A stretch of DNA of 40,750 nucleotides from an uncultured Clostridia bacterium (GTDB lineage Bacteria > Bacillota > Clostridia > Christensenellales > Borkfalkiaceae): the NCBI GenBank assembly GCA_905235795.1, contig CAJOMS010000003.1, forward strand, positions 1 through 40,750, in the 5' to 3' direction. The position numbers and the translations under genes are program-made. Shown in pieces: positions 1,277 to 16,244 of this stretch; position 1 is the first letter of the stretch, and every line of letters begins with the position of its first letter. The notes under the pieces are model-generated. The model was given only the letters and a program-made list of their open reading frames with translations, was not told the DNA's origin and searched no databases.

Positions 1277-2257
1277 TTATTTAAAAAACAGTTCGGCAAT
1301 TTCTTCGGGCTTTGCTCCTATGATGAATTTTTCCACTCCGTTCAGTGCGGCAGTAAGCTCTTCCTTTTTATACAAAACGCCGTTTAATGCGTGATTTAGG
1401 GCACTTACCTCTTTCAAAGAAAAGAAGTCGCCCGTAAAAGAAACGTTTTGCAGGGCGCCGCCTTCGATATCGAAATTGACCTTAACAAGCCCGTAAGGGA
1501 ATTTTTCCTCGGCGGAGATTTTAGCTGTTGGCGACATGCCGATATTCCAAGCAAAGGTCGAGTATTTTTCCGTGCGGAGTTTTTCTATCTCGGCAATATC
1601 CTCAGCGGTAAACTCATACCTTTCGGCTTGGGCGGAAAAATAGTCCGCCAGCCCGTCGTAAAACTGCGTGGCGGTAAGCTCTTTTACAAGGTGATTTTTT
1701 ATATTGGTAACGCGCGCGCGCGCGGATTTTATGCCCTTGCTCTCTATCTTTAATTTGTGTGGCTTTAACGCTGAGGTCAAAACCGACATATCCGTATCGA
1801 AAAGCAACGTTCCGTGGTGCATAATGCGGTTTTTATACACGCATTGCGCATTGCCGGAGATCTTCATACCGTCGATAACTACGTCGTTTCTGCCGGAAAA
1901 TTCCGCATTTATTCCCAAAGTTTTTAGGTAACCGATTATTCCCTCGGTAAAGTACCTGTAATTATCCCTTTCGCCGTCGTACTCGGCAATTATGGTGTAG
2001 CACACGTTGTTTAAGTCGTGGTAAACCGCGCCTCCGCCCGTTTGTCTGCGCACCACTTTTATGCCGTGGCTTTCGGTGTAATCGAGGTTGACCTCTTCCG
2101 CGGTGTTTTGGTTTATGCCCACGATAACTGCGGGCGCGTTGATCCAAATGTAAATAAAATACCCGTCGGTACGGCGCAGAAGAAACTCCTCGCTGGCGAG
2201 ATTGAAATACGGATCGTTAGAAATTCCTTTAATAAAATAAACTTTATCTTTGTCCAT
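1277..2257 (-). CDS. lplA: Lipoate--protein ligase
   Basis: 326 aa; LplA motifs VVRRQTGGGAVYHDLNN and NDVVIDGMKISGNAQ. Confidence 0.93.
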   Translation of the reverse strand: MDKDKVYFIKGISNDPYFNLASEEFLLRRTDGYFIYIWINAPAVIVGINQNTAEEVNLDYTESHGIKVVRRQTGGGAVYHDLNNVCYTIIAEYDGERDNYRYFTEGIIGYLKTLGINAEFSGRNDVVIDGMKISGNAQCVYKNRIMHHGTLLFDTDMSVLTSALKPHKLKIESKGIKSARARVTNIKNHLVKELTATQFYDGLADYFSAQAERYEFTAEDIAEIEKLRTEKYSTFAWNIGMSPTAKISAEEKFPYGLVKVNFDIEGGALQNVSFTGDFFSLKEVSALNHALNGVLYKKEELTAALNGVEKFIIGAKPEEIAELFFK

Positions 2258-2355
2258 ATCGTTAAGTTAACGCGCGAAATACGCGACTTTTGTTTAAACG
2301 GCGATTGCCGCAGCGAACGTTATCGCCACGGCAATCGGTTTGATTTAAGGATTTT

Positions 2356-4819
2356 TTACACGCCCTTCTTAGCGCAGCGCATGATCTCGGCGTCGGAAGT
2401 GTTGGTTTCGGAAACGTAGCCGTCCAACTTCATGATCTTGTCGTTGATGTTGTCGAGAATCCAGCTTGCCTGCGGGAAGAATTCCGCGTCGAATTCATAC
2501 GGAGGAGTGATCCAGTTCTTCGCGCCTACTACTACGACGGGAGCGTCGAGGTAATCGAAGCAGAGTTCGGAAATCTGCCATATCGTTGAGGATGGTGCCG
2601 CGTGCACAAGCGTCGGAAGCGAGCAATATCTTGCCCGTCTTTTTAACGGATTCCACCACTTTTTCGTAATTGAACGGAACGATGGAGCGCGCGTCGATGA
2701 CCTCTGCCTCAACGCCGTATTTTTCGGAAAGAGTCTTTGCGGCGTCCATAGCGCGGTAAAGCGTTGCACCGATAGTGAGAATGGTTATATCGCTGCCTAC
2801 GCGTTTTACGTCGGGTTCGCCGATGGGTATCTCGTAATAGCCTTCGGGAACGCCGCCCTGATGGAATTCTTCGCCCTTGTCGTAAATTCTCTGGCTCTCA
2901 AAGAATACCACGGGGTCGGTGCCGTTCAAAGCCGAATTCATAAGGCCCTTAGCGTCGTAAGGCGTTACGGGGAATACAACCTTCAAACCGGGGATATGAG
3001 CGGGCAAAGCTACCCAGTCCTGAGAGTGTTGAGCGCCGTATTTGGAACCTACGGATACGCGCAACGTAACGGGCATTTTGAGTATGCCGCTCGACATAGC
3101 CTGCCATTTAGCGAGCTGGTTGAATATTTCATCGCCCGCACGGCCCATAAAGTCGGCGTACATAAGCTCTACGATGACTCTGCCTCCGCACAGGCCGTAA
3201 CCTACCGCAGAAGAAACTATAGCGGCCTCGGAAATAGGCGAATTGAACAATCTGTGATACGGCAACGCCTCGGTAAGTCCTCTGTAAACGGCAAACGCAC
3301 CGCCCCAATCGCGGACGTCCTCGCCGTAAGAAATAAGGGTTGCGTCTTTATAATATCTGTCTATAATTGCCTCGAAGATACCGTCGCGAATGTTGTACGC
3401 CTTGATCTTAGAAACGGGCTTGCCGTCCTGATCGAAAGCAAAACGGCTCTTGCCGGCAATCTGTTTAACTCTGGGGTTCTCCTCCATAGGCATCTTGACT
3501 TCGGGCGTTCTTTCGGGTGCGAAAGACTCGACCTTTCCGTTGGAGAACATAATATTTTCGATATAGTAAGGATCCTTTTTGAAGTCGTGATAGGGTGAAA
3601 GTTCGGGATCGGCAGCCATTTTGCATATCTTGAACATTCTCTCCTTAACTCCGTCGAGCAATTCGTCGAATTTGGCGTTCTTTTCTACCTTGGCGTCTAC
3701 GAGGCCTTTGCGGTAAGTGATGAGCGGATCGACCTGCTGCCATGCTTCCACTTCTTCCTTAGTTCTGTAAGACATGCTGTCTGACGGGGAGTGTCCGCCG
3801 AAACGGTAGGTAACGACGTCCAAAAGAACGGGGCCTTCGCCTTTAAGCAATATTTCCTTCTTCCTTTTCATTGCATCGATAACGGCAAGAGGATTAAATC
3901 CGTCTACCCTTTCAGCGTGCAATTGAGAAGGCGATACGCCCGCGCCGAGACGTGCGAGGAAGTCGTAAGCCATGGTTTCGCCGCGCGTTTGACCGCCCAT
4001 GCCGTAACCGTTGTTGAAGAAGTTGAAAAGTATCGGCAAGCCGCCCTTCTTTTCCCACAGTTGATTCATTTGGTCCATAGCAGCGAAGTTCATGGATTCG
4101 TAAACTACGCCGCAGCCGACGGCACCGTCGCCAACGTTAGAAATAACTATGCCGGGCTTATCGTTGCATTTTTTATAGAGCGCCGCGCCCATAGCTATAG
4201 GTGCGCTGCCGCCTACCAACGCGTTGTTCGGGTAAATACCGAACGGCAGGAAGAAGACGTGCATGGAACCGCCCATGCCGCGGTGGAAACCCGTTCTCCT
4301 TGCAAATATCTCTGCCAATGCTCCGTAGAGCAAAAAGTCGGTTGCAAGGTCTTTTACGTTGCCGGTCTTGTTGCCCGTTTCAACTGCGCGCAATACTTCG
4401 CCGCCCATAAATTCTTCCATTATCTTCATGAGTTCGTCGTCGGGAAGTTTGTGTATAGACGAAAGTCCACGGGCGAGCACTTCGCTGTGGCTGCGGTGCG
4501 AACCGAAGGTTATATCGTTTTTATCAAGGATAAACGCTTGACCTACGGCAGCTGCCTCTTGCCCCATGGAAAGGTGAGCCGGACCGGGATACGAATGTTT
4601 AAACCCGTTGTACTCGCCTTGTACTTTTATGGAATAAATCATGCTTTCGAACTCGCGCAGGGTGGCGATATCCGTAAACATGGTAACTAATTCTTCTTTC
4701 TTAAAATTCTTCTTTTCCTCGGTGATAGTTTTGTTGTACTGATTCACCGGAATATCTTCAAAATGAATCGTTCCGCTCTGTCTTATAAAATTCGGATCGA
4801 TGAATTGACTCTTTGGCAT
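2356..4819 (-). CDS. Thiamine-dependent 2-oxoacid (pyruvate/acetoin-type) dehydrogenase E1, fused alpha-beta subunits, with an apparent frameshift near the 3' end
   Basis: ORF 2495..4819 carries E1alpha (GDGAVGCGVVYE...NNGYGMGGQT) followed by E1beta (SYGEDVRDWGGAFAVYRGL, ISEAAIVSSAVGYG). The expected E1beta C-terminus (ISELCFDYLDAPVVVVGAKNWITPPYE...) lies in the overlapping frame of ORF 2356..2769. Confidence 0.9.
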
Positions 4820-4887
4820 TTTCTTTTCTCCTTAAAATTTAAATTTTTTTAATTAGTCCCGTAAAACGCGCGTTTTCGGGGAAAACG

Positions 4888-6270
4888 TCATTCGCTCCAA
4901 ACGGTTTCGCGAATGATCTCGCACACCGTGGGGTGCGGGAAAACAAGCTTCTTTATATTCTCGATATCGACTTCAAGATCGATAAGAGCGGACACGGCAA
5001 CGATATATTCGCTGGCGTAAGAGCCAATGATATGCGCGCCGATAAGCGTGTTGGTTTTAGTGTTTATTACGAGTTTGCAAATACCCGAAAGGTCGGTGTT
5101 TTCGGCAACGTATCTGCCCGAATACATCATGGAAAGTTTTTGCGTCTTTACGGCAAGTCCCTTTGCCTTTGCACTCTCTTCCGTTTCGCCTACGGAACCT
5201 ATTTCCGGCGTGGTATATACTACCGAAGGTATGACGTTGTAACGCATGTGGTCGTTCTTTCCGCACATTACGTTAACGGCAACTTCCGCCTCTCTGTAAG
5301 CGGTGTGCGCAAGCATTATCTTGCCGTTTACGTCGCCTACCGCGTAAACGTTTGCAACGTTGGTTTGCATGCGGTCGTCGGTAACTATTGCGCCACGCTC
5401 GGTATTTACGCCTATATTTTCCAGCCCGAAGCCTTGCGTTACAGCCCTTCTGCCTATGGAGCAAAGCACTTTATCCGCAACTACTTTTTCGGTCTTGCCG
5501 TTCTTTTCGTAAACGACGCCGTCGTTTTCCACGGCGGTAACTTTTGCGCCAAGGCGGAAATCCACGCCCTTCTTTTCAAGCGCCTTTTGAAGTATGCCGG
5601 ATATCTCCGCGTCGGTGGGGCCGGCGATCTTTTCCATCATTTCAACCACGGTAACTTTGCTGCCTACCGAGGAGAAGTAAGACGCCATTTCAAGACCTAT
5701 AACGCCGCCGCCTATTATGGCGAGCGTTTCGGGGATCTCCTTCAAATCGAGTATTTCTTTATTGGTCATAACGTAGCCGGCGGCAAGGTTTTCCCTCAAT
5801 CCCGTAATCGGCGGAACGACGGGCATAGAGCCGGTAGCAATTACGAGGCGTTCCGCAAGGTATTGCTCGCCCTTTGCCTCTACTATATAGCCGCCCTCGC
5901 CCTTGCCGACGATCTTCGCCTCTGCCTCGACCATAGTTACCTTGGCCTTTTTAAGCTGAGATTTTACACCGGAAACGAGCGTCTTAACTACGCCGTTCTT
6001 TCTCTCTACGACGAAAGCCTGATCTACGCCGTTGCCGACTTTAACGTCAACGCCGTAATCGGCGGAATGTTTTGCGTAATCGAGCACTTTTGCCGAATAC
6101 AAAAACGTTTTGGAAGGAACGCAGCCTTCGTTAAGGCAAACGCCGCCAAAGTGTTCCTTTTCTATTACCATGGTTTTGAAACCTGCGTTACCTGCGCGCT
6201 CGGCCGCAAGATATCCGCCCGGGCCGCCGCCTATAACTAATACTTCATATTTTTCCATATTCCACCTCAA
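4888..6270 (-). CDS. lpdA: Dihydrolipoyl dehydrogenase (E3)
   Basis: 460 aa; FAD-binding GGGPGGYLAAERAG, redox disulfide GGVCLNEGCVPSKT, C-terminal HPTVCEIIRE. Confidence 0.95.
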   Translation of the reverse strand: MRWNMEKYEVLVIGGGPGGYLAAERAGNAGFKTMVIEKEHFGGVCLNEGCVPSKTFLYSAKVLDYAKHSADYGVDVKVGNGVDQAFVVERKNGVVKTLVSGVKSQLKKAKVTMVEAEAKIVGKGEGGYIVEAKGEQYLAERLVIATGSMPVVPPITGLRENLAAGYVMTNKEILDLKEIPETLAIIGGGVIGLEMASYFSSVGSKVTVVEMMEKIAGPTDAEISGILQKALEKKGVDFRLGAKVTAVENDGVVYEKNGKTEKVVADKVLCSIGRRAVTQGFGLENIGVNTERGAIVTDDRMQTNVANVYAVGDVNGKIMLAHTAYREAEVAVNVMCGKNDHMRYNVIPSVVYTTPEIGSVGETEESAKAKGLAVKTQKLSMMYSGRYVAENTDLSGICKLVINTKTNTLIGAHIIGSYASEYIVAVSALIDLEVDIENIKKLVFPHPTVCEIIRETVWSE

Positions 6271-7916
6271 TTAAAAATTACGTTGTAACTGAAATTTTCA
6301 AGATACTCTTTCAATTCTTTAAGGAACTTAGACGCGGGCGCGCCGTCAAGAGCGCGGTGGTCGTAAGTGAGTGAAAGGTTCATTGCCTGATAGGGAACTA
6401 TTTCGCCGTTTGCGCCGAGTTTTATCTTCGTTTCAAGTCCGCATACGCCGAGTATACCCGTCTGCGGGGGATTGATAACGGGCGTAAAGCTCTCTATTCC
6501 GTAAACGCCTATATTTGAAACGGTAAACGAGCCGCCCGTCATCTGATCGGGCTTTAACGTACCGGCTTGCGCCTCTTTTGCGAGTTTTTTGGAATTTGTC
6601 GCTATTTCAGACAAAGTCATCGTATCTGCGCCGAACAGTACGGGCACGTACAACCCCTTGGGTGTATCTACCGCAACGCCTATATTTGCGGAGGAGAAAT
6701 ATCTCATCGTGTCGCCGTTTATAAGGTTTGCGTTGAGCGCCTTGTGATTTTTGATCACCCTCGATACGGCGTAGATGATTATATCGTTAAAAGTGATGTT
6801 GGGCAAGCCGAGTTTTTCGGCGTTTGCCTTGATAAACGAACGCAGCGCTATAATATTCGTGCAATCGAAGGAGATATTGTGCGTAAGTTGCGCCATCGTC
6901 GAAAGGCTGGTAACCATATTTCTCGCGATTACCTTTCTCAAATTCGACATCTTCTCCTCGGTATAAGCATGAACGTCTACCGTCGCCGCAGGTGCCGCGG
7001 ATGCCGTGGGTTGTGCTGCGGGTGCCTGTTCCGCTTGAGCGGCAGGGGCTTTTACTCCGTTTGCGGCGGCAAAGCGAACGTCTTTTTCCACTATTCTGCC
7101 CTTAGGCCCCGTGGGAGCGCACGCAGAGAGGTCAACGCCCATTTTGGACGCGAGCGCCTTTGCTCTGGGAGAAGCGAATATCCTTCCTCCGTCGGTTGCG
7201 GGCGCGGCGGTGGAAGCGGGTGCAGATGATGCCATCGGCGCGGTTTGAGCTGCAGCGGGCGTTTCCTGCGCGGGCTGTGCGGCAGCGGGTTGAGCCGAGC
7301 CGGGAGCAAAACACGAAACGTCGTCGCCCTTGCTGCCTACGGCGCATACAGGCACCAAAACGGCTACCTCGTCGCCCTCGTTATAAAATTCAGCAAGAAC
7401 TTCGCCCTCTACCTCGCTTTCCTGATCGAAAGCGGCTTTATCCGTTTCATAGCTGAAAAGCACTTCGCCGACGGCAATATGCTCGCCGACTTTTTTGTGC
7501 CACTTGGTAAGTATGCATTGTTCTACCGTGATGCCCTGTTTAGGCATAAGCACGGGTTTTGCGTTAGTTTCAACGGCTTTTGCCGCGGGTGCGGCAGCCT
7601 GCGCCGTCTGTGCGGGAGCGGCCGTTTGCTCAGTTGCGGGAGCGGCAGTGCCCCCCGTAAATTCAGAAATATCCTCACCCTTGTTGCCTATAACGCAAAC
7701 GGGCACGAGAACGGCAACTTCAGCGCCTTCCTCGTATAACTGTGCGAGCACTTCGCCCTCGGCCTCGCTTTCCTGGTCGAATGCGGATTTATCCGTTTCG
7801 TAACTGAAAAGCACTTCGCCTACGGCAACGTGTTCGCCGACTTTTTTGTGCCATTTCGTGAGTATGCATTGTTCTACGGTAATACCCTGTTTTGGCATAA
7901 GTATCGGTTTAGCCAT
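6267..7916 (-). CDS. Dihydrolipoamide acyltransferase (E2) with two N-terminal lipoyl domains
   Basis: 549 aa; two lipoyl domains (ETDKSAFD, ETDKAAFD), Ala/Pro-rich linkers, E3-binding domain (ASPRAKALASKMGVDLSACAPTGPKGRIVEKDV), catalytic DHRALDGAPA. Start overlaps the lpdA end by 4 bp. Confidence 0.94.
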   Translation of the reverse strand: MAKPILMPKQGITVEQCILTKWHKKVGEHVAVGEVLFSYETDKSAFDQESEAEGEVLAQLYEEGAEVAVLVPVCVIGNKGEDISEFTGGTAAPATEQTAAPAQTAQAAAPAAKAVETNAKPVLMPKQGITVEQCILTKWHKKVGEHIAVGEVLFSYETDKAAFDQESEVEGEVLAEFYNEGDEVAVLVPVCAVGSKGDDVSCFAPGSAQPAAAQPAQETPAAAQTAPMASSAPASTAAPATDGGRIFASPRAKALASKMGVDLSACAPTGPKGRIVEKDVRFAAANGVKAPAAQAEQAPAAQPTASAAPAATVDVHAYTEEKMSNLRKVIARNMVTSLSTMAQLTHNISFDCTNIIALRSFIKANAEKLGLPNITFNDIIIYAVSRVIKNHKALNANLINGDTMRYFSSANIGVAVDTPKGLYVPVLFGADTMTLSEIATNSKKLAKEAQAGTLKPDQMTGGSFTVSNIGVYGIESFTPVINPPQTGILGVCGLETKIKLGANGEIVPYQAMNLSLTYDHRALDGAPASKFLKELKEYLENFSYNVIFN

Positions 7917-7960: not shown

Positions 7961-9223
7961 TTATATGGATTTGGCGTTGGCGAGCAGATATTTTTCCGCC
8001 TCGTCGTTCCAAAGTCCGTTGTGTCTTGCGCAAATTTCGGCAAGCGCCTTGAAGAGCGGATCCGTCTTGCCTTTTTCTTCAAAATCTTCTATCGCGGTCA
8101 TCGGCAAAGATATGTTGGTATAAACGAGTTTTTTCGCGCCCTTGATATTGGGCAGGTTCATTATCGTATCGATAACGCTGTCCAACCCGCCAACGTGCGA
8201 GATCATGATGGAAGGGTTGATTCTGCCTGCCGCAGAAAGAGCGAGAGCCTCTCTCATATCGTCCGTATTGCCGCCCGAAGTACCTGTTACTCTGTGGAAG
8301 GAATAGTGTACGTCGTAGAAGTTGAACTTAGCCGAAAAATCGGATTTAAGCGGGCCTGCAAAGAAGTTGAGGCAGCCGCCGTTACCCAAAAGTTGGTCGC
8401 CCTGTTCTACGAGGAAGGAAACGGGCGCGTAGACGAACACGTCGTCGAAACCGTTTCCGCCGTTAAGGTTCTTCATATACGCTACGGGATCTTCGACCGC
8501 AGAGGTGTTTACGTAAACGAGTTTAACACCGTTTTTGGCGGCGTCTTCCACGGTGAGAAGTTCCGCGGCTCTTTTAAGCCTTGCGTCATCTATATCCGTA
8601 ACAACCATAAGCGAAGGCTTTCTGTCGCAATGAATGCCGTAATCGACGCATTCAAGTCCCATGGGGCCGGCACCTGCGAGAATGGCTACGGCTCCGCCCT
8701 CTTTTATGCCCATAATATGCGTGTGATTGCTGTAATCGCTGTGATAATTTTCGTGATATCCCGCGATTATGCATGATACGGGTTCAGAAAGCGACGCTTT
8801 ATAGTAGCAATCGGACTCGTACGGGAGAAGGCAGTTACATTCCATAACCTCGTTGGGAATAATGATCTTCGTAGCGTCGCCGCCGATATACTTATACGAA
8901 TATCCGGGAGCGTCTGCGGAGCCCTTGTAATTCAATGCGGGCTGTATGGAATATTTTTGACCGGGCTTGAATTTATCTTGCCATTTTTTGCCTACCTGCA
9001 AAATCTCTCCGCAAAATTCATGCCCCACGATAACCGGATTTTCGGCAATATCTTCGGGCACGCGCTTGTGTGCGGAGCCTTGTTCCATAGCTTTGTAAGT
9101 GGACATACATACGCTGTCAGACACGACAGACGCCAATATCTCGTCGTCCTTTAATTCGGGAAGTTCAAATTCTTCTAATCTCAGATCTTCCTTCCCGTAA
9201 AGTCTTACGGCTTTAGTTTTCAT
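7961..9223 (-). CDS. Zinc-binding alcohol dehydrogenase-family protein, L-sorbose-1-phosphate reductase-like
   Basis: 420 aa; medium-chain dehydrogenase fold with GHEFCGEILQVG and Rossmann AILAGAGPMGLECVDYGIH. Subfamily assigned from overall pattern. Confidence 0.75.
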   Translation of the reverse strand: MKTKAVRLYGKEDLRLEEFELPELKDDEILASVVSDSVCMSTYKAMEQGSAHKRVPEDIAENPVIVGHEFCGEILQVGKKWQDKFKPGQKYSIQPALNYKGSADAPGYSYKYIGGDATKIIIPNEVMECNCLLPYESDCYYKASLSEPVSCIIAGYHENYHSDYSNHTHIMGIKEGGAVAILAGAGPMGLECVDYGIHCDRKPSLMVVTDIDDARLKRAAELLTVEDAAKNGVKLVYVNTSAVEDPVAYMKNLNGGNGFDDVFVYAPVSFLVEQGDQLLGNGGCLNFFAGPLKSDFSAKFNFYDVHYSFHRVTGTSGGNTDDMREALALSAAGRINPSIMISHVGGLDSVIDTIMNLPNIKGAKKLVYTNISLPMTAIEDFEEKGKTDPLFKALAEICARHNGLWNDEAEKYLLANAKSI

Positions 9224-9278: not shown

Positions 9279-10310
9279 TTATTTTGAAAGTGAACGGCGG
9301 TATTTTTCCGCCTCCCAATTGTTTATAAAGTCAACGTCTTTTTCGCTCATGGTGGAAATTCCGAGTCCCTTAGCCTTTAACGTGTTTATGACGAAAAGAT
9401 AGGCAAACAGCGTTTCTTCAAGCGTTTGCGCCTCTTTTGCGTTGGTGTTATATACCACGGTGCCGTTTTGCGCCTGCATCTTTTCGGGGGCAAAAGCCAA
9501 AACGTTGTTAAGATACACGAGCTGGTCGGGATAGAGCGGGTATTCGTCTAACATTGCCTTGGTAAGCGGCGAGCCCTTTACGAAATCCACAACCGTAGGC
9601 GTTTGAGATTCAAACTTATTTTCTCCCACGCATTTCAAGCTTACGCTGCGGTAAGCGTCCTTCAACCCGAAATAAGCTACGATCTTGCCGTTTACTTCTT
9701 CGTTGATCTTTTTAACTCTTTCAAGTTCGTCCGCGGTGACGACTAAGCCGTGGTTCTGCATAAAAATCACTTCGGGGAACTTTCCGTTTTTAGCCTCGTA
9801 TTCTTCTATTGCGTCCTTCATTTTTACGGAAAGCGTAAAGCCGGGGTCTATATACGGCATAAAAATATACCCGAAGTCCGCTCCCTTGAAAATTTCTGCG
9901 GCTATATCCTTACCGTTTAAAGAACACGTTAAAAGATTTGCGTAAACGGAATGAGTGTGTATAACGTATTTTTTAAGCACGGAGTGAAAACCTACCTCCA
10001 CGCTCGGGCGGAGGGGTTGCAGCCCTTCCGTTTGCAGAGTCGCCTCTGCCGTAACTTTTTTGTTTTCGGCCTCGTGATCTTTCCCGTCCGAAAGGTCTAC
10101 GCCGCACAAAAACTCTCGTATCATTTTAAGATCCATAGGTACGTAAGCCGTATTTTCGCTTATATCCACCAACTTAAAGCCGGAAGCCTTTATATACATA
10201 ACGTTGCCGTCTTTAACCGAAGTGTTTCCGCCGCCGCCCTGAGTGTAATCCACTCTGCCGCCGGCGTATTGCGAAATTTCTATCAGATCTTTTATTGCCT
10301 GACTGGTCAT
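9279..10310 (-). CDS. Class II aldolase/adducin-family protein
   Basis: 343 aa; GGGGNTSVK, PSVEVGFH, HTHS and MQNHGLVV, the class II aldolase catalytic and zinc-site motifs. Confidence 0.85.
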   Translation of the reverse strand: MTSQAIKDLIEISQYAGGRVDYTQGGGGNTSVKDGNVMYIKASGFKLVDISENTAYVPMDLKMIREFLCGVDLSDGKDHEAENKKVTAEATLQTEGLQPLRPSVEVGFHSVLKKYVIHTHSVYANLLTCSLNGKDIAAEIFKGADFGYIFMPYIDPGFTLSVKMKDAIEEYEAKNGKFPEVIFMQNHGLVVTADELERVKKINEEVNGKIVAYFGLKDAYRSVSLKCVGENKFESQTPTVVDFVKGSPLTKAMLDEYPLYPDQLVYLNNVLAFAPEKMQAQNGTVVYNTNAKEAQTLEETLFAYLFVINTLKAKGLGISTMSEKDVDFINNWEAEKYRRSLSK

Positions 10311-10327
10311 ATTTTATCTCCTTATCG

Positions 10328-11617
10328 TCATTCAAGGTTAAATTCCTTGTTTATCGTTTCAACTTCTTCGTCGGTTATCTTTACTACCTGACCGATAAGT
10401 CCGGAATGGATTATAGTGTTGGCGGTAAACTCGACTACTTCCAACGCGTCGAACGCCTCTATCAAAGTACCGCCTACGGCAATCACGCTATCGTTTTCGA
10501 TAAGCACAACGGGATGACTTTTATTGATCGAATCGCTTACGAGCTCAGGATCTTTTATGTTGGTGCCGTAAGGCAAACGCACGAGATCTCTTATCTTTAT
10601 GTAAGATTCCGGTATGGTGCGGCTGTCTATTTCCGTTCTGGTTATGCCGAAAGCCAAAATGTTGGTAGGCTGAGCGACCACTATGGCGTTGACGTCCGGA
10701 TGAGTTTCGTAAATCATTTTATGGAGCGACACCGAACGCGACGGACGTTTGCCCGCCTCTCTCCAACCGTGATCCACGCGAACGAGATCCTCCGGCTCAA
10801 GGTGCTTTCTGTCCTTTCCGTAAGGAGTAATGATAAAGCTGTCCCCATTCAACCTCTCCGAAAAAGTGCCCATCGTACTTGAAAACAAGTCCTGATCGTA
10901 CGCCCTGTGAATAAGCGTGCACATCTTGTTTCTTATATCTTTTTCTTTGGAAGAAATTTCCGCGGGTATAAATTCGCCAAGCTGAGTTTTGCCCTTTTCG
11001 TTGGCTAATTGAATCTGTTCTTCGGTAAGAGGATACGCCTTGCCCAACAATTTGGACGTAATATCCAACTTAGCGCACCTTTCGAGCGTTTCAAACTTCT
11101 CGAAGGCGTCGAACAGATCTTTGCCGCAGGTTACCACGCCGTGGTTTTCCATAACTACTACGTCGTACCCGTTTTTGAACTGCTCCGCAATAGCCTCGCC
11201 GAGCTTTATACTGCCGGGCACCTCATAAGCCGCTATACCTACTTTACCGCAAACGAGTTCGGTAGTGGGTATTATGCGCGTATCCGGTATCTTCCTGATA
11301 AGGCTGTAACTTACGAGCGAAGGCGAGTGTGCGTGCACGACCGCCTTTGCGTCAGGACGAGTTTTGTAAACGAGTTTATGGAAAGGCAATTCTACCGAAG
11401 GTTTATATTTGCCTATTACCGTTCCGTCCGGCTTAACGCAGCATATATCGGAAGGCGTAAGCGCGCCTTTATCTATGCCGGAAGGCGTTATCCAAATATT
11501 TCCGTCGCTGTCTATAATAGACAGATTTCCGCCGGAAGTTGTAGTCATTTGTTTGCGGTATATCCTGTTTATTGTGAGCACTATCTGCTCTGCAGGATGC
11601 ATAAATTTGTATTCCAT
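10328..11617 (-). CDS. Tandem class II aldolase/adducin-family protein (two aldolase domains, second degenerate)
   Basis: 429 aa; the N-half has TSGGNLS, SVELPFH, HAHS, ENHGVV. The C-half aligns to it but has SVSLHK, VAQP, ENDSVI at the equivalent positions. Confidence 0.85.
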   Translation of the reverse strand: MEYKFMHPAEQIVLTINRIYRKQMTTTSGGNLSIIDSDGNIWITPSGIDKGALTPSDICCVKPDGTVIGKYKPSVELPFHKLVYKTRPDAKAVVHAHSPSLVSYSLIRKIPDTRIIPTTELVCGKVGIAAYEVPGSIKLGEAIAEQFKNGYDVVVMENHGVVTCGKDLFDAFEKFETLERCAKLDITSKLLGKAYPLTEEQIQLANEKGKTQLGEFIPAEISSKEKDIRNKMCTLIHRAYDQDLFSSTMGTFSERLNGDSFIITPYGKDRKHLEPEDLVRVDHGWREAGKRPSRSVSLHKMIYETHPDVNAIVVAQPTNILAFGITRTEIDSRTIPESYIKIRDLVRLPYGTNIKDPELVSDSINKSHPVVLIENDSVIAVGGTLIEAFDALEVVEFTANTIIHSGLIGQVVKITDEEVETINKEFNLE

Positions 11618-11702
11618 TTTAAATCTCCGAATAATTTATTCCCATCATATTCCCCCGATAAAAACGGAATTGTAAGTTTATAGTTTAATTTCAGCCCTTA
11701 TT

Positions 11703-13169
11703 TCAGCCCTTAAAGCCGGCTATTTTTTCGAAAGCGGCAAAATCGGGCTTGTATTTACCTAAAGGCAAGTACTCTTTAACGTCGCCGCCGGCGGCTATCA
11801 TTTTCTTTGCCTCGTCAAGGTCTTTTACTTCGCCGAGGGCTATCATCTGCACGGCTATATTGCCTAACGCCGTAGCCTCCGAAGGGCCTGCCACGACCTT
11901 TACGCCGCAGATATCCGCCGTCATTTGGCAAAGTATGCCCGCCTTGCAACCGCCGCCTATTATGTTTACGGCGTTGAACTTCTTGCCGGTAAGCGCCTCT
12001 ATGCTCCTTAAAGTATAGCGGTATTTTAAAGCGAGGCTCTCGTAAATACACCTTGAAAATTCGCCTATCGTCTCAGGCTCTTTCTGACCGGTCTTGCGGC
12101 AGAAATTCCTTATTTTTTCGGGCATATTGCCGGGATTGTCGAAATCGGGATAATCGGGATCTATATAGCACACGCTCTCGGATTTTTCCGCCATATCGGC
12201 AAGTTCGGCAAACGAATAGTCGTAGCCTTCCTTCTGCCAAGTCCTGCGCGCCTCTTGTATTATCCAAAGCCCCATTATATTTTTAAGGAACCTTACGGAC
12301 TTGTTATAACCGCCCTCGTTGGTGAAATTTTCTTTGTAGCTCGCCTCGTTGATTATGGGTTTATCGAGTTCGACGCCCATAAGCGACCAAGTGCCGCAGG
12401 AAATATAGCAACAGTTGCTCATATCGCCCGGAACGGCAGCCACGGCTGAACCGGTATCGTGCGTGCATACCGCTATTACGGGCACGCTCTTAACGCCGAG
12501 TTCTTCGCATATTTCCGGTTTCAGTTTGCCGTAAACGTGTCCGCTTTCAACGATTCTCGGAAGTTTGGAAGTATCGAAACCTATCTTTTCAATAAGTTCG
12601 TAATTCCAATTGTGAGTGGTTTGGTCGAGCATTTGCGAAGTGGACGCTATCGTATATTCCGCAACGGTAGCGCCCGTCAAGACGTACGCCATAAGGTCGG
12701 GAATGAAAAGCATCGTCTTTGCCGCGGCAACGGCCTCTGCGTCCTCCTTTACGGAAGCGTAAAGCTGGAAAAGCGTGTTTATGCGCATTATCTGTATGCC
12801 CGTTTCCTCGTACAGTTTATCTTTGCCGCCAAGCAGCTTAAAAACTTCTTCCGTCTTACCTTCCGTGCGCATATCGCGGTAATGATACGGCGTGTTTATC
12901 AAATTGCCGTTTTTATCCAAAAAGCCGTAATCCACGCCCCAGGTGTCGATACCTATCGCGTCGAAACCGCCCGCCTGCTTAGCCTTGACTATGCCGGTCT
13001 TTATCTCGTGGATAAGCCTCAGAAAATCCCAATACAATTTCCCGTTTATCTGAACGGGATCGTTGGGGAAACGATGCACCTCGGTATATACGATCTTTCC
13101 GTCGGAAATTTCACCTATAAGCGCCCTTCCGTTCGACGCGCCGAAATCGAATGCCAGAACTTTTTTCAT
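11703..13169 (-). CDS. Rhamnulokinase-like FGGY carbohydrate kinase
   Basis: 488 aa; N-terminal LAFDFGASNGRALIG, GIDTWGVDYGFLD, CTHDTGSAVAAVP, NIIGGGCKAGILCQMTADICGVKVVAGPSEATALGN. Confidence 0.85.
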   Translation of the reverse strand: MKKVLAFDFGASNGRALIGEISDGKIVYTEVHRFPNDPVQINGKLYWDFLRLIHEIKTGIVKAKQAGGFDAIGIDTWGVDYGFLDKNGNLINTPYHYRDMRTEGKTEEVFKLLGGKDKLYEETGIQIMRINTLFQLYASVKEDAEAVAAAKTMLFIPDLMAYVLTGATVAEYTIASTSQMLDQTTHNWNYELIEKIGFDTSKLPRIVESGHVYGKLKPEICEELGVKSVPVIAVCTHDTGSAVAAVPGDMSNCCYISCGTWSLMGVELDKPIINEASYKENFTNEGGYNKSVRFLKNIMGLWIIQEARRTWQKEGYDYSFAELADMAEKSESVCYIDPDYPDFDNPGNMPEKIRNFCRKTGQKEPETIGEFSRCIYESLALKYRYTLRSIEALTGKKFNAVNIIGGGCKAGILCQMTADICGVKVVAGPSEATALGNIAVQMIALGEVKDLDEAKKMIAAGGDVKEYLPLGKYKPDFAAFEKIAGFKG

Positions 13170-13232: not shown

Positions 13233-14012
13233 TCAATACATTTGTTGTCCGCCGGTAACGTTTATTGCCTGACCGGTCATGTAGGAAGACATATCGGACG
13301 CGAGAAATACCATAACGTTTTCGATATCTTCGTATTCGCAGCTCCTCTTCATCGGAACTTGATTGATGTATTTTTCTCTTATCTTTTCTTCGGTAGTGCC
13401 CTGATTTGCGGCGTACTGCTTAAACAAGCTGTTTACCCACAAAGGCGAATTGAGCAAATTGCCGGGGCAGATGCTGTTTACGCGCACGCCCTGTTCTGCA
13501 AATTCAAGCGCGAGACTCTGCGTGAGGCCTACGCCGCCGAACTTACTCGACGCATAAGCGCCGTTTTTGTAAGAGCCCTTTTTGCCGGATTTGGAGTTGA
13601 TTTGAATGATGCTGCCCTTCTTGTTTGCGAGCATTACGGGAGCAACCGCCTTAACGGTGTTGAAGTAACCGTTTAAGTTTACGTCCGTAACAAGTTTGAA
13701 GGCTTCCGGCGTGAGATTGAATATATCCCCGCTCTTTACTATCGCCGCGTTGGCGATGAGAATGTCTATCGTGCCCCATTTTTCAACGACCGCGTCGGCT
13801 GCAGCCTTGCACGTTTCGTATTTGGTAACGTCTACCTGAAACGCCATACCCTCTTTTAATTTAGATGCGACGTTCTGCGCGCCCTCGATGTTTATGTCGC
13901 ATACGGCGACTTTGCAGCCCTCTTTGTCCAGCCTCATGGCGAGCGCTTCGCCCAAACCTTGGCTGGCGCCGGTAACGAGTGCAACTTTTCCTTTAAGATC
14001 TATGTTTTGCAT
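13233..14012 (-). CDS. Short-chain dehydrogenase, sorbitol-6-phosphate 2-dehydrogenase (SrlD)-like
   Basis: 259 aa; TGASQGLGEA, YASSK active site, and the SrlD-like stretch INSKSGKKGSYKNGAYASSKFGGVGLTQSLALE...NLLNSPLWVNSLFKQYA. Confidence 0.85.
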   Translation of the reverse strand: MQNIDLKGKVALVTGASQGLGEALAMRLDKEGCKVAVCDINIEGAQNVASKLKEGMAFQVDVTKYETCKAAADAVVEKWGTIDILIANAAIVKSGDIFNLTPEAFKLVTDVNLNGYFNTVKAVAPVMLANKKGSIIQINSKSGKKGSYKNGAYASSKFGGVGLTQSLALEFAEQGVRVNSICPGNLLNSPLWVNSLFKQYAANQGTTEEKIREKYINQVPMKRSCEYEDIENVMVFLASDMSSYMTGQAINVTGGQQMY

Positions 14013-14036: not shown

Positions 14037-15335
14037 TTATTTCTTTATTACAGACGCCCTGCCTATTTCGGCAAAAGCGGCTATTCTCTCTTTAAGATCC
14101 GGATACTTTTCAACGGCCTTTTCCGCAAACATACCGTTTTCAACGCCGTTTTCCGCGGCGCGTTCGTGCCCGATAAGCGCCCACGTGCTATCTATGAGAT
14201 TGGCGTATCTCGGGTTGGCAAGCGCCTTGCATTCAAAGCGTTGCCTCGGTGAGTTTATATCCTCCCCGCTTATCTCAAAAAGCCCGTATTTCGCACATAA
14301 AGCGCGCAATCTGTCAAGCTGAGCCTCGGTGTTGCGCGTGGGCATATAAGCCACCGCCTTTATGCCTACGGCCTTGATCTCCGCAATCAGTTCGTCCAAA
14401 AAATCGTCCTCGAATTTCTGTGCGCGCTTGTCGCCGGTAACGCTGTCTCCAACGTCGCCGAGGTAAGCGTAGGCGGGTATGGCGCCGAATTCCGTCGCCT
14501 TTTTGACGAACTCTTTAACGTCGGGCATCTCCTCGTCGGCGTCTATATAAAAGAACTTGGTATCCGCCTTTAAAACGCCGAGCAAATCGTAATTGAAGCA
14601 CGGATTTTCCGCGTCGGTAAGGTAACCTTTCTGCTTGTCGCCCACCTTCAATTCAAGGTCTTTTTCTATAAAATCTATCAACGCCTGCGTTCTGCCGAAA
14701 CGTTCTTCAAGCTTTTTTGCCAAAGCGCTCATCAGATGGCGCTCGGTAATGGAGCCGCCCTCTGCCGCGCAGGACGCGTCGTAAACGTCTTTTTCAAAAT
14801 CTATATTTATGCCGAACTTGCCGAATTTCCCGTTTATCAGTTCGGTCATTTTGCGGTCGCGCAGTTCGCGTTTCGCGCGGTAGCCGGCAAGGTACTCGTT
14901 GAAAGCAGCCCTGTTCTGCTCGGGTACGCCGTGCGCCGCCATATATATGCAATCTTCCTGATCGGGGTGATTTATCTTGCCCCAATGGCGAGCGTTGAAC
15001 TTAGCCCTGACTTCAACTCCGCACGTGTAGCCCATGCCTAAAGTTTTGCACGCCTCGGAAAATTCCGCGTCGCCCGACAAACTGTCATGATCCATTATCC
15101 CGCAGGAAGTAAGCCCCGCAGAGTACGCGGCGTAAGCGGCCGCCGTGGGCGAATACGGCGAAAACGAATATATCGTGTGTATGTGGTTGTTCGCGTCGTT
15201 CTCGCGGCGAACGGGTTGCATGCCGTTTTCTTCCTCGAATTTGAGCAATATTTTTAAATTTTCAAGCCTCTCTCCCGCAGTCGGAGCGTTTAGTCCCTTT
15301 ACGAGTTCAGCTCGTTTTTGTTCGTTTGCGTTCAT
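14037..15335 (-). CDS. PHP-domain metallophosphoesterase-like protein
   Basis: 432 aa; HIHTIYSFS, IMDHDSLSG and GVEVRAKF, typical PHP metal-site motifs. Confidence 0.75.
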   Translation of the reverse strand: MNANEQKRAELVKGLNAPTAGERLENLKILLKFEEENGMQPVRRENDANNHIHTIYSFSPYSPTAAAYAAYSAGLTSCGIMDHDSLSGDAEFSEACKTLGMGYTCGVEVRAKFNARHWGKINHPDQEDCIYMAAHGVPEQNRAAFNEYLAGYRAKRELRDRKMTELINGKFGKFGINIDFEKDVYDASCAAEGGSITERHLMSALAKKLEERFGRTQALIDFIEKDLELKVGDKQKGYLTDAENPCFNYDLLGVLKADTKFFYIDADEEMPDVKEFVKKATEFGAIPAYAYLGDVGDSVTGDKRAQKFEDDFLDELIAEIKAVGIKAVAYMPTRNTEAQLDRLRALCAKYGLFEISGEDINSPRQRFECKALANPRYANLIDSTWALIGHERAAENGVENGMFAEKAVEKYPDLKERIAAFAEIGRASVIKK

Positions 15336-15414: not shown

Positions 15415-15443
15415 TTGCATAAAAGAAATTTTTGTGCTATAAT
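15415..15443 (+). promoter_or_regulatory. Probable sigma-A promoter for the DeoR-family gene
   Basis: TTGCAT (15415-15420), 17-bp spacer, TATAAT (15438-15443), 39 bp before the proposed ATG at 15483. Confidence 0.65.
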
Positions 15444-15482
15444 TCAATCATAAACGAAAACAAACGAGCAACGAGGTATGAT

Positions 15483-16244
15483 ATGTACGCCATTGAGAGG
15501 CAAGACGAGATATTTCAGATACTTAAAGAGCGCAAGTCCGTATCTGTAAACGAACTTTCAAAAGAGCTGTTCGTCAGCCCTGCGACAGTCCGTCGGGACC
15601 TGTCCGTGATGGAAAAATCGGGGTTGATACGCCGCAGTCACGGCGGGGCGATACTTACGGGCAGCTCGTCGGACGAATCGAGCATAATCATGCGCGAGCA
15701 GGAAAACGTCGTTGAAAAAAAGGAAATTGCCGCCGTTGCGGTGCGTTTAGTAAAAAATAACATATCGCTGTTTTTGGATTCTTCGAGCACGGTGGGCAAG
15801 ATAGTGCCGCTTTTGGCGAGGTTCAATTTTATTTCCATAGTAACAAACGGCTTAAAAAACGCCCTTTTGTTATCGGAAACGACCAAAGCGCGCATTTACG
15901 TGGCGTGCGGAATGATTCAGAGCCAATCGAACTCCATACTCGGCGCGGATACGGTAGAATACTGTTCCAAACTGCACACGGATATAGCGTTTATGTCCTG
16001 CAACGGCATAGATATAGACAACGGCATGACGGAAGCGAGCATAGAGCAGGCGAAAGTAAAACAGACGATGCTTAAAAATTCTTCGCTTAAAATTTTACTT
16101 GCCGACAAAAGCAAATTCGGCAAGACGTTTATGGCGCGTTCGGGCGGTTTCGGCGATATAGATTATCTGATAACCGACGTTATGCCCTCACCCGAGTACG
16201 TGGCGGCGATAGAGGCGTCCGGCTGTAAAATTCTGCTGCCGTAA
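15483..16244 (+). CDS. DeoR-family transcriptional regulator
   Basis: ORF track opens at 15432 (TTG), but the first ATG with DeoR-like N-terminus (MYAIERQDEIFQILKERKSVSVNELSKELFVSPATVRRDLSVMEKSGLIRRSHGGA) is at 15483, after a GAGG-like RBS. Confidence 0.92.
   Translation: MYAIERQDEIFQILKERKSVSVNELSKELFVSPATVRRDLSVMEKSGLIRRSHGGAILTGSSSDESSIIMREQENVVEKKEIAAVAVRLVKNNISLFLDSSSTVGKIVPLLARFNFISIVTNGLKNALLLSETTKARIYVACGMIQSQSNSILGADTVEYCSKLHTDIAFMSCNGIDIDNGMTEASIEQAKVKQTMLKNSSLKILLADKSKFGKTFMARSGGFGDIDYLITDVMPSPEYVAAIEASGCKILLP

Follow-up and report, generated by a model that had tools for sequence, protein, structure and literature searches.

A tandem class II aldolase gene in a sugar catabolic gene cluster

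The window analysed here is a stretch of 40,750 nucleotides from the genome of an uncultured Clostridia bacterium. Its reverse strand, to which all coordinates below refer unless the forward strand is given, carries a stop-free open reading frame of 429 aa (10328..11617) whose two halves lie in the same frame and each match PF00596 (Pfam Aldolase_II, class II aldolase/adducin), for a total of 251 bits. When the halves were scored separately at genome scale, the N-half reached 165.9 bits (E 7e-49) and the C-half 90.0 bits (E 1.5e-25), against a cut-off of 22.2 bits. Such an E value for the C-half rules out a match by chance. Both halves therefore belong to the class II aldolase/adducin superfamily, and the description of the gene as a two-domain tandem aldolase, first made in an earlier note from the sequence alone, was borne out. 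Enzymes of the FucA/RhaD type are single-domain proteins of ~215–275 aa, a format from which this protein departs. It fell short of the NCBIfam equivalog cut-offs for OtnC (175 of 250 bits), FucA_Meth (157 of 250), TIGR01086 fucA (107 of 400), and PRK03634 rhamnulose-1-P aldolase (85 of 170 bits). No specific NCBIfam cut-off seen was reached, and the protein can be identified just as a class II aldolase of a generic kind. Two antisense open reading frames with TTG starts overlap the gene (10295..10882 and 11009..11683, forward strand; 195 and 224 aa) and are probably a by-product of codon composition.

The gene sits in a run of genes related to sugar metabolism. Directly upstream lies an FGGY sugar kinase (11703..13169) that is rhamnulokinase-like (TIGR02627 rhamnulokinase, 495 bits for a cut-off of 528). 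Only 17 bases downstream lies a second class II aldolase (9279..10310; 343 aa, PF00596), which is RhaE-like and shows the Glu and His set in its translation; its best NCBIfam matches were models of bifunctional aldolase/short-chain dehydrogenases. A short-chain dehydrogenase (SDR) is encoded at 13233..14012 (sorbitol-6-phosphate dehydrogenase model NF009050, 322 bits, above the cut-off of 307), and together the RhaE-like aldolase and this separate dehydrogenase look like RhaEW in two genes. Synteny also identified as conserved neighbours a zinc-type alcohol dehydrogenase (7961..9223; PF08240, PF00107) and, in several families, a PHP-domain protein (about 430 residues; 14037..15335; PF02811). 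The divergent DeoR-family gene (15432..16244, forward strand; PF00455, PF08220) likely encodes the regulator of the operon. The same gene run includes a complete 2-oxoacid dehydrogenase complex (E1, E2, and E3) with a lipoate ligase (1277..7916). Most of the operon set of the window recurs in a distant genus (L103-L105). The 2-oxoacid dehydrogenase complex was seen to travel with part of the gene set in that genus and in locus L120.

The C-half has lost the metal site and kept the fold

Alignment with E. coli FucA placed the complete set of metal and base residues in the N-half (about residues 1–190; 11048..11617). Glu76, in the motif PSVELPFH (residues 73–80; 11378..11401), corresponds to FucA Glu73; His95 and His97, in HAH (residues 95–97; 11327..11335), to the metal ligands His92 and His94; and His159, in NHG (residues 158–160; 11138..11146), to the metal ligand His155. 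The metal/phosphate half-site is intact in this half, and its residues E76, H95, H97, H159, N31, S74, and H80 were invariant in all 49 non-redundant homologues (see below).

In the C-half (about residues 223–429; 10331..10951), the equivalents of Glu73, His92, His94, and His155 are Ser295, in PSRSVSLH (residues 292–299; 10721..10744), Val314 and Gln316, in VAQ (residues 314–316; 10670..10678), and Asp376, in NDS (residues 375–377; 10487..10495). These are the very substitutions that the earlier note had read by eye. It had also supposed that the fold was kept and had proposed structure prediction as a check. An AlphaFold model built for the isolated C-half (pLDDT 73, pTM 0.74) had as its best PDB matches in Foldseek 2irp, 2opi, and FucA 1fua, with E values of about 1e-12 to 1e-10 and TM scores of about 0.67–0.72. 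Since the best matches were class II aldolases, the fold is retained.

The loss is old and common to a whole family

Tandem homologues were present in 43 of the 396 sampled genomes of the order, in 55 of the 391 of the class (with a slight overlap between the two sets), and, its own genome not counted, in 8 genomes from the phylum sample. The gene was nearly always single-copy. We recovered 81 full-length tandem sequences, from Clostridia and other Bacillota, of which 49 were left at 80% non-redundancy. All 49 N-halves carried the EHHH tetrad, that is, the one-Glu, three-His metal/base site typical of FucA/RhaD-type enzymes. No C-half did. The C-halves showed 20 different tetrads, and the position of His92 was never His, being Ile, Val, Leu, or Ser in all 49 sequences. 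The C-half is hence unable to form a metal/base site of the usual kind; the loss of catalytic residues claimed for this one protein extends to the family. We looked among these variable tetrads for a new conserved pocket and found no support for one.

A sequencing error or a pseudogene was considered and rejected: the loss is common to the 49 homologues, their reading frames are unbroken, and dN/dS values are low. The latter were about 0.05 to 0.07 in both halves against the close homologues for which dS was measurable (L003, L004, and L005), with synonymous sites saturated. By this measure, both halves are strongly constrained, and the C-half is under strong selection with no sign of decay. 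We found no stand-alone C-half genes; on the fetched loci, no short open reading frame scored better with the C-half profile than with that of the N-half.

In a tree, the N-halves and the C-halves each formed one group with 99% support, which indicates that their division was one old event. The joining of the two groups into one was neither shown nor rejected (AU p 0.41), so that both an internal duplication and a fusion of two aldolases fit the tree. Incidentally, another genome of the order has, at locus L153, a pair of class II aldolase genes that are separate but adjacent (L153:9630-10259 and L153:10260-10922) and follow an FGGY-like kinase. The first is degenerate, with Asp at the third His position and without the GN motif, and the second is intact. 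This pair, a different and unrelated-looking case, may represent the divided-site idea realized independently with two genes.

The C-half keeps the parts that FucA and RhaD lend to a neighbouring subunit

The active site of FucA lies between subunits, one of which provides the metal ligands, Glu73, and the phosphate site (PMC11274987, PMC11841055), while the neighbour gives Tyr113', Met114', Val202', and Phe206' (PMC11274987). The adjacent monomer contributes Tyr113' in FucA and Glu171' in RhaD, residues that are key to protonation (PMC6202814) and act as acid/base on a substrate oxygen (PMC6202814, PMC11841055). The earlier note compared just the residues that serve a subunit's own metal site and left such inter-subunit residues aside.

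The C-half has an equivalent of the Tyr113'/Glu171' loop, IPESYI (residues 335–340; 10598..10615), and a C-terminal tail (residues 422–426; 10340..10354) in which Ile422 and Phe426 correspond to Val202' and Phe206'. Pro336, Glu337, Tyr339, and Phe426 were identical in 49/49 C-halves. As a matter of fact, the most conserved residues of the C-half (Pro336-Glu337-Ser-Tyr339, Ile422, and Phe426) coincide with the donated parts of FucA and RhaD, and few parts of the protein vary as much as the loop of the N-half. At donated positions, conservation was higher in the C-half, by a mean of 2.2 bits over the N-half (permutation p 0.0001), and at own-site positions it was higher in the N-half (permutation p 0.0004), both tests taking columns as independent and leaving sequences unweighted. 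When windows of six columns were scanned along the alignment, conservation of the C-half exceeded that of the N-half most at FucA 108–113.

Profile alignments paired Phe426 with FucA Phe206 and RhaD Phe263. The register of Glu337 shifted with the alignment: it fell at FucA 110 in one and at FucA 115 in another, and a profile alignment placed it one residue off RhaD Glu171. We infer that Glu337 and/or Tyr339 would be the donated acid, the loop register differing by a few residues between alignments. A full-length AlphaFold model, built with ten sequences (pLDDT 67, pTM 0.47, low confidence in the loop), was uninformative on the N–C interface.

Single-domain relatives carry both contributions in one chain

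The control consisted of 56 sequences (23 of them non-redundant) from the nearest single-domain relatives found, the L126/L011-type aldolases of Clostridia. In 56/56 of them, a single chain combines EHHH with the loop Glu. In the same alignment, the N-halves had EHHH in 49/49 and lacked the loop Glu in 48/49, the exception being L064, which has Glu at the loop column; the C-halves had the loop Glu in 49/49 and EHHH in none. This complementary pattern points to a duplication that divided one composite site between two specialized domains. The tail Phe position was mostly Arg in the single-domain relatives and Phe in FucA and RhaD.

A probable divided active site

Taken with the conservation data, these observations make it probable that the protein is a FucA/RhaD-type aldolase, duplicated and fused, whose halves have each kept one of the two contributions to a single inter-subunit site. 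Single-domain class II aldolases of this kind form tetramers, and each of their sites combines the metal/base/phosphate face of one subunit with the acid-carrying loop and the C-terminal tail of the next. The N-half would have kept the metal face and lost the loop residue, and the C-half would have kept the loop (Glu337/Tyr339) and the tail (Phe426) and lost the metal face. Two chains would then most likely form a pseudo-tetramer, presumably arranged N-C-N-C, with two complete sites made of an N-half metal face and a C-half loop, and with two dead C–N interfaces.

The earlier note was right about the retained fold and the lost metal site of its pseudo-enzyme domain. It was the role it gave to the C-half, regulatory or merely oligomerizing, that found no support as the main reading, given that the invariant parts of this half are a loop and a tail that in class II aldolases serve a neighbour's site. 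For this reason, the C-half probably acts as a catalytic partner, completing the site of the N-half, and is less likely to be a bystander. It is likewise likely, with slightly less assurance than for the division itself, that the tandem proteins are a widespread and hitherto undescribed family of obligately composite enzymes in gut and other Bacillota, going back to one ancient duplication, and that the metal-less half is needed for catalysis through the acid loop and the tail.

Three other explanations were weighed. The C-half could be just a structural or oligomerization module, stabilizing or tethering an N-half whose site is complete alone or with another N-half. A kept fold with the metal set gone is what this would predict, and adducin offers a precedent, being a class II aldolase domain turned protein-binding tetrameric module (PMC12599920). 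However, a site built from N-halves only would be without the donated acid, as it would have no donated Glu/Tyr (the loop Glu being found in 1/49 N-halves), and it would have no donated Phe either. Moreover, the strongest constraint on the C-half bears on the catalytic loop and the tail and is not spread over the surface. We thus consider this explanation unlikely.

A second possibility, which we hold to be more doubtful still, is that the C-half pocket was repurposed as a regulatory site for a ligand such as phosphate or a sugar phosphate. Degenerate phosphate-site motifs do persist (GTFS, PSR), with Arg294 in 37/49 and Ser293 in 36/49 sequences. Yet the former metal/base positions, with their many tetrads, are less conserved than the donated loop, and the repurposed binding pocket that the earlier note had offered was unsupported as a main reading. 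A regulatory site could hold within single clades, and would be compatible with a divided active site. Finally, it is very improbable that the C-half works as an enzyme of its own, be it metal-free or with other metal ligands: it does have the conserved C-specific residues Asp390 and Arg294, but Asp390 is not among the pocket columns, His never occurs at the His92 position, and the family has no set of replacement ligands in common.

Predicted reaction

Gene context associated the tandem gene with 6-deoxyhexose pathways. In one clade (L045, L052, L057, L058, and L062), it lies between an L-fucose isomerase gene and an FGGY kinase gene, the identity of FucI being confirmed for L045 and L057. 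It is clustered with L-rhamnose isomerase in L120, adjoins lactaldehyde reductase (FucO) in L009, and adjoins a RhaEW-like fusion in L054. In the genome under study, L-rhamnose isomerase (RhaA) is encoded on another contig, and no L-fucose isomerase was detected in the assembly, which is about 90% complete. Thus, FucI, RhaA, FGGY kinases, and FucO are all found near homologues, and a kinase is adjacent in the window.

With FucI, RhaA, a rhamnulokinase-like kinase, and lactaldehyde reductase as neighbours, we predict cleavage of a 6-deoxyhexulose-1-phosphate. DHAP and L-lactaldehyde would be the products, most likely from L-fuculose-1-phosphate and/or L-rhamnulose-1-phosphate. This choice of substrate is tentative, because another RhaE-like aldolase, itself intact, is already present in the operon.

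Significance and comparison with known systems

That duplicated domains can lose alternate sites is well known. The tandem aldolase would be a clean natural case of a homomeric active site that duplication allowed to split into two complementary half-sites, and single-domain forms with the site undivided persist in the same class of bacteria. The case suggests that, before a "pseudoenzyme" half is called inactive or regulatory, the residues it lends to a partner should be checked. The divided site is directly testable through point mutants in the "dead" half, and the protein is a candidate L-fucose/L-rhamnose aldolase for Clostridia genomes. In the open-access literature searched, we found no account of a class II aldolase with tandem domains and divided half-sites, and no solved structure matching both halves was found.

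Among known systems, E. coli FucA resembles both parts of the protein: the N-half keeps its metal ligands, Glu73, Asn29, and Ser71, and the C-half keeps its donated-loop and Phe206' positions. One clade also has FucI and an FGGY kinase next to the tandem gene. Unlike the tandem protein, with its two fused specialized halves, FucA has one domain and forms a homotetramer in which each chain gives both halves of the site. E. coli RhaD is likewise single-domain; the loop Glu of the C-half is close to its Glu171' and the tail Phe aligns with its Phe263, but the overall similarity to the C-half is very weak (5 bits, in the C-terminal region only). RhaEW, a bifunctional rhamnulose-1-phosphate aldolase/lactaldehyde dehydrogenase (PMC3870299), is a class II aldolase of the same pathway, and a RhaE-like aldolase and an SDR share the operon of the tandem gene; its fusion partner, however, is a dehydrogenase and not a second aldolase. 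The aldolase domain of adducin/Hts also uses the class II fold in a tetramer, for protein binding, but it is eukaryotic, binds actin or Mud, and is not fused to an active aldolase domain (PMC12599920). The nearest single-domain group found, the L126/L011-type aldolases of Clostridia, carries EHHH and the loop Glu together and, unlike the tandem protein, is neither fused nor divided.
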